From the NCBI GenBank assembly GCA_001513155.1, contig LFSR01000049.1, positions 1 through 46,073 of the forward strand: DNA of 46,073 bases, in the 5' to 3' direction. Source of the stretch: Syntrophomonas sp. DTU018. Lineage in GTDB: Bacteria; Bacillota; Syntrophomonadia; Syntrophomonadales; Syntrophomonadaceae. Positions 16,690 through 46,073 of this stretch are shown here, piece by piece (within the stretch, counting starts at the first letter, position 1; each line of letters opens with the position of its first letter). The position numbers and the translations under genes were made by a program. The notes beneath the pieces are model-generated. The model saw only the letters and a program-made list of their open reading frames with translations. It was not told the DNA's origin and searched no databases.

Positions 16690-16975
16690 AGTCTATTGGC
16701 GGTTCGACGTTCGAGATTGCCACGCCCCTCCGGGGCTCGCAATTATCACCAGAAGAACTGGCCACGATAAATGAAAAGTTACCTTTGGTGTCATTGCGAG
16801 CCCCTGGAAGGGGCGCGGCAATCTCCTTCTCTGCCTGCTATCCGGAATTGAGATCGCCACGGCACTTCGTGCCTCGCGATGACAAAGCGCAGTCATTTTC
16901 ACAGCAATGACACATAAGCTGGCCTTTTGGTATGTCATCGCGAGGAGCGTAGCGACGTGGCGATCTCTTTTAGCT
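16690..16975. repeat. Dispersed REP-like repeat cluster
   Basis: It contains CGAGCCCCTGGAAGGGGC, GAGATCGCCACGGCACTTCG..CGCGATGAC, a CATTTTCACAGCAATGAC hairpin, and ATCGCGAGGAGCGTAGCGAC..GGCGATCTC. These are the same modules as at 0.3, 35.7 and 40.0 kb but in another order. It ends about 50 bp from the tRNA-Thr gene. No coding sequence is seen. Confidence 0.8.
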
Positions 16976-35659: not shown

Positions 35660-35870
35660 GGAATTCTTAATTGTCATTGCTGTGAAAATAGTCTTGTGTC
35701 ATTGCGAGCGCGTAGCGCGTGGCAATCTCTATGGCAACTAACGGTGTGAGTTAACAGATCGCCACGTCGCTTCGCTCCTCGCGATGACACAGCGCAGTCA
35801 TTTTCACAGCAATGACACCCAAGGTGACTTTTCATTCATCGCGGTCTCTACCGCCGATGATTTCGAGCCG
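35660..35870. repeat. REP-like repeat inside the arginine operon
   Basis: It contains GTCATTGCTGTGAAAATAG, CATTGCGAGCGCGTAGCGCG..GGCAATCTC, ATCGCCACGTCGCTTCGCTC..CGCGATGACA and a CATTTTCACAGCAATGAC hairpin. These are the modules also found near 0.3, 16.7 and 40.0 kb. It fills the 295-bp gap between the argJ stop and the argB start in an operon whose other gaps are mostly under 35 bp. Confidence 0.82.
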
Positions 35871-38619: not shown

Positions 38620-39294
38620 CTACACGGAACCTGAGTCCTTTATACCGCGAAGTTTGCTAATTGGCAATCTTCGCCCGTGGGCAGGATAAAACACTGTGGC
38701 TCCTTTATTGATAAGCATTTCCCAGCTGGAAGATATCTGGGAAGGCTCCTCGGCGAAAATGGGAATATGGGAGCGGAAGACCATATTCATAGCCAGATCT
38801 CCGACCAGCGCTTGCCCATCTTCCAGCAAAACCGATATCGACCCGGGAGTGTGCCCGGGAGTAGGAATTATTTTACCTGCTACCCCGAAGGGGGTCAAGT
38901 CATATTCATCATCAGCAGTTATTTCTACTGTGGTTTTGGCAAAGCCCAGCATCCTGGTACTGCGCTTTCCCACCCAGCTGACCATGTTGCCCAGCCAGTT
39001 GGTCCCCGGAGGTATGACTACTTCTCCTGCTTCTATTATCCTGGCCTCCAGGGGGTGAGCCAGGACCGGACAGCCGCACAGGTCCTTGATCTGAGCCAGA
39101 CTGCCCACATGGTCGAAATGAGCGTGGGTTATTATGATCAGTTTTATGTCCGTGGAATCAATGCCCAGTTTACCCAGTTGTCTTTGAAACAACTTGGCCA
39201 CGGACTGGCGTCCGGCATCTACCAGGATCCACCCCTGAGCAGCTTGAATAAGATAACAGTTGGTGTAAGCCAGGGGCACGGTAATTACCTTCAT
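38620..39294 (-). CDS. MBL-fold metallo-hydrolase
   Basis: A 224-residue metallo-beta-lactamase-fold protein. The metal ligands are in THAHFDHVGS (His57, His59, Asp61, His62), with a further His in PTPGHTPGSI, an Asp in LVGDLAMN and a His in YPAHGRR. These give the complete dinuclear site of a hydrolase of the glyoxalase II type rather than a flavodiiron protein; no flavodoxin domain is present. Its ATG is 15 bp past the stop of the ArsC/Spx-like gene. The substrate is unknown, though thioester hydrolysis is common in this family. Confidence 0.88.
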   Translation of the reverse strand: MKVITVPLAYTNCYLIQAAQGWILVDAGRQSVAKLFQRQLGKLGIDSTDIKLIIITHAHFDHVGSLAQIKDLCGCPVLAHPLEARIIEAGEVVIPPGTNWLGNMVSWVGKRSTRMLGFAKTTVEITADDEYDLTPFGVAGKIIPTPGHTPGSISVLLEDGQALVGDLAMNMVFRSHIPIFAEEPSQISSSWEMLINKGATVFYPAHGRRLPISKLRGIKDSGSV

Positions 39295-39309: not shown

Positions 39310-39669
39310 TTAATTAAAGAAGTCGCGGTATTGGTCTTCCTTGAAACCAGTCAGCACCTGCCGCCCTCTCACCAAAACCGGCCTTACCAGGAGGCGGGGA
39401 TTGTTTACCAGCAGTTCTAAAGCCTGCTGCTCATCCAACTGGTCAGCCTTGATCCCCAGTTTCCTAAAAGCTTGTCCCTTGGTATTCAGCATCTGCACCA
39501 GGGTGGACTGGTTCAGTTCCGCCAGTTGCAGGTATTCCTGTTCACCCAGGGGTTGTTTGATCAGATCCCGGTATTGGTAAGAGACACCATGGTCATCCAG
39601 CCAGGCCCTGGCTTTCTGGCAGGTCTTTCAATTGCTGACACAATAAAATAAGATATCGGCGGGCTGCAT
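39310..39669 (-). CDS. ArsC/Spx-like thioredoxin-fold protein, candidate selenoprotein
   Basis: The frame from ATG 39669, with a near-perfect AGGAGGTGA before it, is interrupted once by TGA at codon 14 (39630-39628) and then runs to a stop at 39312-39310, 119 residues in all, the normal ArsC/Spx length. Around the TGA the protein reads ILFYCVSN-[TGA]-KTCQKARAWLDDHGV. In relatives this is FYxxPxCSTCxKAxxWL, so the TGA takes the place of the first Cys of CxxC (UxxC). Minus-strand bases 39619-39597 can form a hairpin with its apical loop 20 nt after the TGA and G first in the loop, which fits the bacterial SECIS model. The rest of the frame is intact, which argues against a decayed gene. Confidence 0.78.
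39597..39619 (-). promoter_or_regulatory. SECIS-like hairpin downstream of the in-frame TGA
   Basis: GCCAG (39612-39608) pairs with CTGGC (39604-39600) around a GGC loop. CCA (39619-39617) pairs with TGG (39599-39597) below a GAAA bulge. The loop begins 20 nt after the TGA. Distance, loop G and short upper stem agree with known bacterial SECIS rules. Confidence 0.6.
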
Positions 39670-39726: not shown

Positions 39727-40374
39727 ACCATAAACCGCCTGCATCAATAAGGGTACACCTGCTCAGTACCTTTTCCAGCCCAATTTGACTATAATTAATA
39801 GTGAAAGCCGGAAAAATTTTGACGAAACTGTAACCAAATTCTCCAGGTATCATAACTTAAATATTGGGTATGATAATCGATGAACAGCTATCCGGGATTT
39901 TCCCGGTGGCTTTCATATAAAGATGGGGAGGGCTTGCTCTCCCCGTCTATTATTTTCCCTTCATTACTGTAAAAACGGCTTCCTAATGTGTCATTGCTGT
40001 GAAAATGGCTTCCTAGTATGTCATGGCTGTGAAAATGACTGCGTTGTGTCATCGCGAGGAGCGCAGCGACGTGGCGATCTCTTTTTCGCAGCCTGCGTGC
40101 CTCGTTCGAGATTGCTTCGCTGCGCTCGCAATTGTCACCAGTAGAACAGGCCACGATGAATGAAAAGTCCTCTTATATGTCATTGCGAGCCCCTGAAAGG
40201 GGCGCGGCAATCTCATTCGTCTATCTGTCTCCCCGTTGGAGATCGCCACGCGCTACGCCCTCGCGATGACACAATGGTTGCCTTTTTACTGACATGAAAG
40301 CCATTTTCACAGCAATGACACAAAGGGTAGTTTTTCATTCATCGTGGCCTGCGTCCTAGGCGGCAATTGCGATA
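39727..40374. repeat. Intergenic region dominated by REP-like modules
   Basis: From about 39965 to 40374 the stretch is made of the dispersed modules: two copies of GCTGTGAAAATGGCTTCCTA-type hairpins, TCATCGCGAGGAGCGCAGCG..GGCGATCTC, CATTGCGAGCCCCTGAAAGG..GGCAATCTC, GAGATCGCCACGCGCTACGC..CGCGATGACA and a CATTTTCACAGCAATGAC hairpin. GCCACGATGAATGAAAAGT, also present at 16.76 kb, marks one end. From 39727 to 39965 no feature is recognised. No gene is supported. Confidence 0.8.
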
Positions 40375-41529: not shown

Positions 41530-42921
41530 TCAAGTGTAGCGGACTACCTCGAAGCGCTCGATGGAATAATCCTCATCGGGTCTGATGCCCGCTTTCTGGC
41601 AGGCAATGCGCAACTGTTCCTCCACCGTGTCCACCCCTTCCAGATCGGGAAGCAGCAAACCCCGGCGGCTGCCCTTGGTAACAATTACTCCGTAGCGCTT
41701 GGGATCCAGCTGATCCCGGGTGGCAGGTTCAGGCTTGCCCAAAATATCCACGGAATAGACCAGGTCCTCCAGTTCATGTTCTTCCACCGGCAAAAACCGG
41801 GGATCCCGGGTGGCAGCGCTGATGGCATTGCCGGCAATTTCTTCGGCCAAATCGCCATAGGCAGGGCTAATGGTGCCAATGCAGCCCCTGAGCTGGCCGT
41901 GTTTTTTTATGGATACGAAAGCCCCCGCCTTTTCATTGCGCAGGTATTCCATCTCCTTGGGCAGCTTGGGCCTGGGCTTTTTGCCTATATAGCTCTCAAT
42001 TACCATCCGGGCCCACCTGACAGGGGGGCTTTCCTGCCGGCGCCGCTGCTCCTGGGTTTCCCGCTGCCTGGCCTGGAGTTTCGACAGCAGGGATTCCCGG
42101 GCAGGTCCGGGCTTAAACCCGGCGATTAAATAACCTACTCCATAGGGCCCTTCATAGCTGAAAACCTGGGGCTGAAAGTCCATTCCGTCCAAAGCCCCCA
42201 GCATTATTACAATGGAGCGGTAACCGCATTCCCCCGCATTGCTGCACAGGGTTTCCGGCAGGTTGAGTACGCCCTCCACATCACCGGCTTGCAGCAGATC
42301 ACGGATGGTCTGGTCGAAAACCGGGCCATCCGGATGGAATTGATAAGGCCCGTCGCTTTTGAGACGGTGGGACATGTCACCTGAGGCCAGAATGGCTACT
42401 TTGCGGCCTATTTTGTCCGCCGCCTGCTGCAATACCCGGCCGAACTGGTACAACTGGATGTTGGGCAGAAAAGCTATGCTGATGGCTACGAGGCTCACCT
42501 CAGTCAATCCAGCTTCCTGCAGGTAATACAGGGGTACCAGAATACCATGGTCCAGGTTGGGGTTGAGCCGGTGCTTTTGAGCTATTTCCTGGTCCAGAAT
42601 AACAAAAGGCAGGTTTTCAGCAGTTGACTGGGCGGCGATCTCCCGCAGCAATTCCAGATCGTTGCTTACCTGCCATTTTTGCCTGGCTCCGAAGTTGGCC
42701 AGATCTCCTTTCAGGATAGGTTGTCCTAAACTGGACAATGCGTCGGCAAATACATTCCCATGGGGGGTGAGGAATACAATGGTTTCCGGTGAACTAGCTG
42801 CTAACTCCCGGGCCATTTGCTGCATTCCGTCCACGGTTGACTGGACCTCTTTAAGCCGAGATCCGCCTATCTCCGGTACAATCAAAGGCGGATGAGGGCT
42901 TAAGGCCGCATAAGCAATCAT
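41530..42921 (-). CDS. Fused AmmeMemoRadiSam system protein B and protein A
   Basis: A 463-residue fusion. Residues 1 to about 270 are the MEMO1/LigB-type extradiol dioxygenase-like fold (YAALSPHPPLIVPEIGG, HGILVPLYYL, ASGDMSHRLK), AmrB. A charged linker at about 280-300 (QRETQEQRRRQE) leads to an AMMECR1 domain, AmrA (AGAFVSIKKHGQLRGCIGT with its LRGCIG hallmark). In many genomes these are separate genes; here they form one polypeptide next to amrS, supporting a physical complex. The putative metal-site His residues of the MEMO fold (His12, His residues in the middle) are retained. Confidence 0.9.
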   Translation of the reverse strand: MIAYAALSPHPPLIVPEIGGSRLKEVQSTVDGMQQMARELAASSPETIVFLTPHGNVFADALSSLGQPILKGDLANFGARQKWQVSNDLELLREIAAQSTAENLPFVILDQEIAQKHRLNPNLDHGILVPLYYLQEAGLTEVSLVAISIAFLPNIQLYQFGRVLQQAADKIGRKVAILASGDMSHRLKSDGPYQFHPDGPVFDQTIRDLLQAGDVEGVLNLPETLCSNAGECGYRSIVIMLGALDGMDFQPQVFSYEGPYGVGYLIAGFKPGPARESLLSKLQARQRETQEQRRRQESPPVRWARMVIESYIGKKPRPKLPKEMEYLRNEKAGAFVSIKKHGQLRGCIGTISPAYGDLAEEIAGNAISAATRDPRFLPVEEHELEDLVYSVDILGKPEPATRDQLDPKRYGVIVTKGSRRGLLLPDLEGVDTVEEQLRIACQKAGIRPDEDYSIERFEVVRYT

Positions 42922-44673: not shown

Positions 44674-45951
44674 TTATGCCGCCTGCTGCACAGGTTGATG
44701 GATATCATTTAGCATCTTTTCTGGGTCGTAATCTACACCTTTGCTTAACAATGCATAGAATATGCGTATCAATTTCCCACAAAGGGCGACAATGGACTGC
44801 ATTTTGTTAAGCGGGTTGTTTTCCCGCGTAAGGTTCCTTTGATGAAGTAAACGAAATTCAGGATTATGGGCTAGTATGGCAATCATGGCAAAGAATAAAC
44901 TGTGTCTCAACCGTTTTCTGCCTCGCTTGCTGATGGTGGTTTTCCCTTTGTGTTTACCGGAACTGTTCGCCACCAGGTTAAAGCCTGCTAGTTTCTGGAT
45001 CTGACGTGGATCTTGAAATCTGCTGATATCTCCTACTTCGCCCACAAATGTTGCTGCTGTGCTTAAACCCACCCCTTTAATATCTAGGAGTTTACTGGCA
45101 TTGGGAACTTGCATCAGTAGCTCCAGCATGAGTTGTTCCAGGGCTTCATATTGTTTACAGTATAGATCGTATTGTGCCAGTAGGTTTTTCAAACTGGCTT
45201 CGGAGGCTAATTTGCCACTGGTTCTACCTATACTGTTACTGGCTACTTTTACAAGTGCCTCTGCACGTTTAAAGCTGGGACGTTTCATTTCTGTTTTCCA
45301 TGTCTCGCAAATCTTTCTGGCTCCTGCTTCTACAATCTTTTCCGGGGTGGGAAAGGATCTCAAGGTGATCAGTGCTGCGTTTCTGCGCCAGTCTTTAAAG
45401 ACCTTCTGGAATTCCGGGAACCTTATATCCAGCCATCTTACGACTCGATTGTGGATGGATGTCAATTGCTCCTGCAATCGCTCCCGTTCTGCCACCGCTT
45501 CTCTTAGTTCCTGATAGATGTCATCAGGTATGTACACTTCCCGGTAACGTCCATCTTTGACCAGCATAGCGATGGTCTTACAATCTTTACTGTCGTTTTT
45601 ACTTGGGCTGTTATCATCCAATTCTTTGGTCCGGTTAACATGGAACGGATTCACTATGGCCAGCTTATGGCCCTGGTGCTTAAGGTGATCACCCAACACA
45701 AACCAATAATGTCCAGTAGGTTCAAAGCCGGCTACGATCTCTGTCTTGCCTTTCTGCTTACATATATCCTGCATCCACTGGTCTAGAAGTTTAAATCCTT
45801 CCGCTGTGTTGCTAAATTTCAGCAGTTTGGCTAGCTCAATCCCCCTGTAATCAAAGGCTCGTGCGTAGTGGGTCTCTTTTGCTACATCAATACCAACTAC
45901 TAATGTTTCATTTTTGATTTGCGAAATCTTCTGATTTTGTGTATTTTTCAT
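44674..45951 (-). CDS. IS110-family transposase
   Basis: A 425-residue IS110 recombinase. The N-terminal RuvC-like DEDD domain starts VVGIDVAKETHYARAFDY (first Asp at 22), with the Glu in GFEPTGHYW and the Asp pair in SPSKNDSKDCKTI. The C-terminal Transposase_20 domain contains IKGVGLSTAATFVGEVGDIS and the conserved KLAGFNLVANSSGKHKG with its nucleophilic Ser. GAGGAGG lies 9 bases before the ATG at 45951, making the TTG at 45969 less likely. IS110 elements have little or no terminal inverted repeat and, in studied members, carry a guide (bridge) RNA in a non-coding end. Confidence 0.93.
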   Translation of the reverse strand: MKNTQNQKISQIKNETLVVGIDVAKETHYARAFDYRGIELAKLLKFSNTAEGFKLLDQWMQDICKQKGKTEIVAGFEPTGHYWFVLGDHLKHQGHKLAIVNPFHVNRTKELDDNSPSKNDSKDCKTIAMLVKDGRYREVYIPDDIYQELREAVAERERLQEQLTSIHNRVVRWLDIRFPEFQKVFKDWRRNAALITLRSFPTPEKIVEAGARKICETWKTEMKRPSFKRAEALVKVASNSIGRTSGKLASEASLKNLLAQYDLYCKQYEALEQLMLELLMQVPNASKLLDIKGVGLSTAATFVGEVGDISRFQDPRQIQKLAGFNLVANSSGKHKGKTTISKRGRKRLRHSLFFAMIAILAHNPEFRLLHQRNLTRENNPLNKMQSIVALCGKLIRIFYALLSKGVDYDPEKMLNDIHQPVQQAA

Positions 45952-46073
45952 ATAGGGACGCCTCCTCAATCTTTTGTTTTGTGCCTTTCTTCGACTGGAT
46001 CAGCACAATTCAATTGTAATTGACTGGCGTCTCTTTTTTCAAAGACCTCTGTTAAGCATTACAGGAATGCTCC
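45952..46073 (-). other. Part of the IS110 non-coding 5' end, cut by the window edge
   Basis: 122 bases upstream of the transposase start. AGCATT (46055-46060) and AATGCT (46066-46071) form a stem with a five-base loop, and TCAATT/AATTGA lies at 46010-46023. In IS110-group elements the bridge RNA is encoded in this position; here only a part is visible, so its guide loops cannot be read. Confidence 0.4.

Follow-up and report, generated by a model that had tools for sequence, protein, structure and literature searches.

Selenoproteins of the ArsC type with a UxxC motif are already known. An 'ArsC-like' selenoprotein of Desulfotalea is on record (PMC1794560), an arsenate reductase selenoprotein with the motif UxxS has been reported from the Sargasso Sea (PMC1088965), and the GOS collection contains an 'Arsenate reductase 2' selenoprotein with UxxC that is assigned to the domain cd03032 (PMC2398784). 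An ArsC family selenoprotein with UxxC is also the subject of the model NF041106 (ArsC_rel_Se_1; PMC13188914). Here we analyzed a window comprising 46,073 nt of a contig of Syntrophomonas sp. DTU018, which contains a gene of this kind, and compared the clade to which the gene belongs with these systems. The clade resembles the GOS protein in its membership of the ArsC family, its UxxC and its Spx-type domain assignment, and the Desulfotalea protein in its membership of the ArsC family; those two come from marine metagenomes and Deltaproteobacteria, and the comparison with them is by description only. With NF041106 it shares the ArsC family and UxxC, but the protein from the window scored 44.1 bits where 85 are required, one of two other clade members scored 26.8 and the other fell under the listing threshold, and a sample of 398 genomes from the phylum yielded no protein above the cut-off. 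As the score lies below the NF041106 cut-off, we count the protein as a further member of the known ArsC-type UxxC selenoproteins, and its clade is a little-described branch of a known family.

The gene occupies positions 39310-39669 of the minus strand, a strand left unstated in the preliminary description, which had placed it correctly. It runs from an ATG at 39669-39667 to a TAA stop at 39312-39310, included in these coordinates, and is preceded by the Shine-Dalgarno sequence AGGAGG at 39681-39676, in agreement with the strong ribosome-binding site claimed earlier. Translation also bore out the claim that a single TGA and no further stop interrupts a 119-codon ArsC/Spx-like frame: the TGA is codon 14 (39630-39628, minus strand), and the 119-residue protein, with TGA read as U, begins MQPADILFYCVSNUKTCQKARAWLDDHG. 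The second redox residue of UxxC, Cys17 (39619-39621), and the QKARAWL segment are retained, as had been described, and a third cysteine, Cys10 (39640-39642), is invariant in the clade. A GTG at 39498, which had been named as the likely start of an annotated fragment, is codon 58 of this gene.

We searched for the gene in 54 genomes of the family and then in 63 of the order, and across them the gene turned up in 29 genomes, interrupted each time by exactly one TGA. Sampling was then extended to 398 genomes from the phylum and to 98 from another class, which added more TGA-bearing genes; a class search around genome G205 took in 4 genomes. The clade now holds 69 selenocysteine (Sec) sequences from Bacillota genomes, 68 besides that of the window, a count that takes in two truncated copies and one sequence assigned by eye (L232) and leaves out L168. 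All conform to [FYL][YF]C-x3-U-x-T-C. The sole Cys form in the clade, L230, reads FYCFPTCSTC and has TGC at the site; since the search queries carried C instead of U, Cys forms were not disfavoured. The same codon is also TGA in 16-17 sequences from related clades. As the preliminary description proposed, the TGA falls at the redox Cys position, aligning with the Cys of homologues (Spx, ArsC and YffB-like proteins). Its recurrence at one codon is far beyond chance, and a sequencing error, which would have undone the proposal, is excluded because the same TGA is found in dozens of independent genomes. Readthrough of the TGA as Trp was considered and rejected: neighbouring genes are normal under table 11, and relatives have Cys at this position, never Trp.

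The genome from which the window comes (2.56 Mb in 59 contigs, 99.9% complete) encodes all of SelA, SelB, SelD and tRNA-Sec, which a bacterial selenoprotein requires. A selB gene was found with 378 bits and adjoins selA, which was identified from its own sequence beside selB and not through a model. A tRNA-Sec with anticodon UCA is present, and selD (392 bits) has its own in-frame TGA within the GUAAK active-site motif. Given the selA-selB pair, the tRNA-Sec and a selD that itself contains TGA, the organism very probably uses selenocysteine. Absence of selB and tRNA-Sec had been named beforehand as grounds for abandoning the proposal; both are there, and so are selA and selD. Within the order, selB exceeded the cut-off in 27 of the 29 genomes bearing the TGA gene and was not found in the other two, the drafts G029 and G045.

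A SECIS-like hairpin, AGCCAG[GGC]CTGGCT, lies at 39613-39599 on the minus strand. It has a 6-bp stem and a predicted energy of -7.1 kcal/mol, and its loop begins with G, 21 nt past the UGA, close to the 20 nt of the preliminary description. Many relatives have a longer perfect hairpin, GCGAAAGC[GTG]GCTTTCGC, with the loop 24 nt past the UGA. At two fixed places, taken together, 54 of 68 clade sequences have a qualifying hairpin whose loop has a G near its start; the places and the criterion were set after the hairpins had been inspected, so that the weight rests on the controls and the Cys homologues and not on the raw count. When synonymous codons were redrawn in 500 runs, the mean was 9.0 hairpins and the maximum 18 (versus the 54 observed), and the hairpin thus survives this control. 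In other Sec clades it was present in 9 of 16 sequences, against a control mean of 2.0, and by the same criterion in none of 23 Cys homologues. In L230, the lone Cys member of the clade, the pairing is broken, as expected if the hairpin serves Sec insertion alone, and L230 is likely to represent a change from Sec to Cys with loss of the SECIS. The strict form is not attained by 14 of the 68 clade members, among them L064, the nearest relative, whose hairpin is a 5-bp variant; taken alone, the hairpin of the window gives a single-sequence p-value of 0.07, and an Rfam scan of the gene matched no SECIS family. Taken as a whole, the clade shows what is looked for in bacterial selenoproteins, a conserved SECIS-like hairpin soon after the UGA whose loop has an early G.

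The Sec machinery, the Cys of homologues at the site, the recurring TGA and a hairpin that exceeds its control together support the selenoprotein reading, and UGA codon 14 almost certainly encodes selenocysteine, judging from sequence comparison. SelB and tRNA-Sec would decode this codon, aided by the hairpin that the coding sequence contains some 20 nt further on. From the alignment and a structural model, the product is predicted to adopt the ArsC/Spx fold, which is thioredoxin-like, and to have Sec14-x-x-Cys17 as its centre. The selenol of Sec14 would attack an oxidised substrate and bind it in a mixed selenenyl intermediate, which Cys17 may then resolve to give a selenenyl-sulfide; the reduced form could be restored by thioredoxin or by Cys10, which lies close by. 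A protein working through such a Sec14/Cys17 cycle would therefore be a small thiol-selenol oxidoreductase of the cytosol rather than a transcription regulator. We put the probability that the gene encodes a genuine selenoprotein and that the product is an oxidoreductase of this type at roughly 0.87; in the oxidoreductase role itself we have moderate confidence. Reductase or peroxide-related chemistry at the Sec site, as suggested in the preliminary description, may be plausible, its peroxide part being unsupported.

The family assignment bears on two other functions. The protein matches Pfam ArsC (PF03960) with 2e-21 and 76.5 bits (cut-off 24) and NCBIfam TIGR01617, which is related to Spx/MgsR, with 100.7 bits (cut-off 75.05). 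An AlphaFold2 model (pLDDT 92.7) is closest in the PDB to the complex of Spx with the alpha-CTD (3gfk, TM 0.83), and Spx was likewise the top match in a profile search of the PDB. These results, and the finding that the product is the only PF03960 protein of the genome, would suit a Sec-based transcription regulator like Spx or MgsR, in which a Sec-Cys redox switch alters contact with RNA polymerase. In an alignment of 14 members (A1), the invariant positions are Phe8, Tyr9, Cys10, Sec, Thr16, Cys17, Lys19, Ala20, Asn62, Arg96 and Pro97. The clade shares with Spx of Bacillus subtilis (3gfk, 1z3e) the fold, the CxxC position, where Sec14 aligns with Spx Cys10, and an equivalent of Arg92 in Arg96, but it differs from Spx in having the additional Cys10. 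Gly52 of Spx, which is reported to be required for contact with the alpha-CTD of RNA polymerase (PMC2801614), is replaced by Thr, Lys, Glu and others. The position of Spx Arg60 is mostly Lys, that of Lys62 is variable, and the C-terminal tail of Spx is missing. The protein also fell short of the cut-offs of all three Spx-specific models, the best score being 79.6 against 123 bits. Because Gly52 and the C-terminal tail have been lost, we regard a regulator of the Spx type as unlikely.

Still less likely is a classical arsenate reductase with Sec in place of Cys12. The catalytic residues of E. coli ArsC, a glutaredoxin-type enzyme, are Cys12, Arg60, Arg94 and Arg107. The clade shares the ArsC fold, has Sec14 at the position of Cys12 and Arg96 at that of Arg94, and related selenoproteins have been given the name arsenate reductase (PMC2398784, PMC1088965). 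However, Asn stands at the position of Arg60 and Arg107 has no equivalent, and it is the loss of these two residues that makes this function improbable; the clade also differs from the E. coli enzyme in having a second redox Cys. The score with TIGR00014 (arsC) is 43.5 bits, against a cut-off of 106, and among the Pfam-assigned genes adjacent to it in the window there is no arsenic-resistance gene. Finally, a pseudogene, a sequencing error or a simple translation stop, as a single in-frame stop in a draft genome might indicate, has a negligible probability given dozens of independent genomes with this same TGA only, clear constraint on the protein and a relative, likewise with the TGA, whose protein is 81% identical.

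In a tree of 78 rows, 40 of which belong to the clade, a branch with support 99/93 that was recovered in 200 of 200 bootstrap trees separates these 40 from the rest, and by these sequences the clade is monophyletic. It is sister to a group that contains Cys-based Spx regulators, although the alignment has few columns and deep branching is therefore uncertain. Other ArsC/Spx-like clades from the phylum sample (L153-L169) have TGA at the same codon within motifs such as YPxUxTC, YPSUTS and YPNUSTA. Such sequences occur at several places in the tree, interspersed with Cys forms, which suggests that Sec and Cys have been exchanged repeatedly. As several neighbouring ArsC clades have TGA at the same codon, such exchange at this site looks frequent in Bacillota.

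A gene for a metallo-beta-lactamase-fold hydrolase (38620-39294, minus strand; Pfam Lactamase_B, 2.9e-25) starts 15 nt past the stop of the selenoprotein gene, with which it is probably co-transcribed. In 8 of 34 loci, one of them that of the window, such a gene comes immediately after the selenoprotein gene on the same strand; in the window it is followed by arginine biosynthesis genes. Upstream of the selenoprotein gene are a radical SAM gene, a LigB-like/AMMECR1 fusion and an amidase gene. Synteny with the AMMECR1/LigB-like, radical SAM, amidase and arginine genes is common within the order and mostly lost elsewhere, and clustering of gene neighbours across the 34 loci thus pointed to no clear functional partner. 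The fusion itself (41530-42921) joins a LigB-like domain to AMMECR1 and adjoins the radical SAM gene, which looks like a fused form of the AmmeMemoRadiSam set. Between the radical SAM and selenoprotein genes, positions 39987-40351 hold nested inverted repeats with a perfect 25-nt pair, as well as a 30-nt unit present three times in tandem; in a near relative (L185) this place is taken by a crotonase-like gene. The sequence GCGAGGAGCGYAGCGACGTGGCGATCTC is dispersed in five copies with up to 3 mismatches (355-382, 406-433, 16940-16967, 35755-35782 and 40054-40081), where none would be expected by chance, and an IS110-family transposase gene (44674-45969) lies close to the contig end.

Automatic annotation would cut the selenoprotein gene at the UGA or begin it at codon 58, so that the family is probably under-annotated, and none of the tested NCBIfam models for selenoproteins covers it. 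The clade, in which about 69 members have Sec and a single one has Cys, and whose sister group includes Spx, offers a natural case for studying what selenium contributes at the active site of Spx/ArsC proteins. It may be, though we think it rather doubtful, that this is a distinct family, almost exclusively Sec-using and with three redox residues (CxxxUxxC), through which Bacillota would tie redox control to the supply of selenium; its members could then be redox switches based on selenium whose evolution ran alongside that of Spx.
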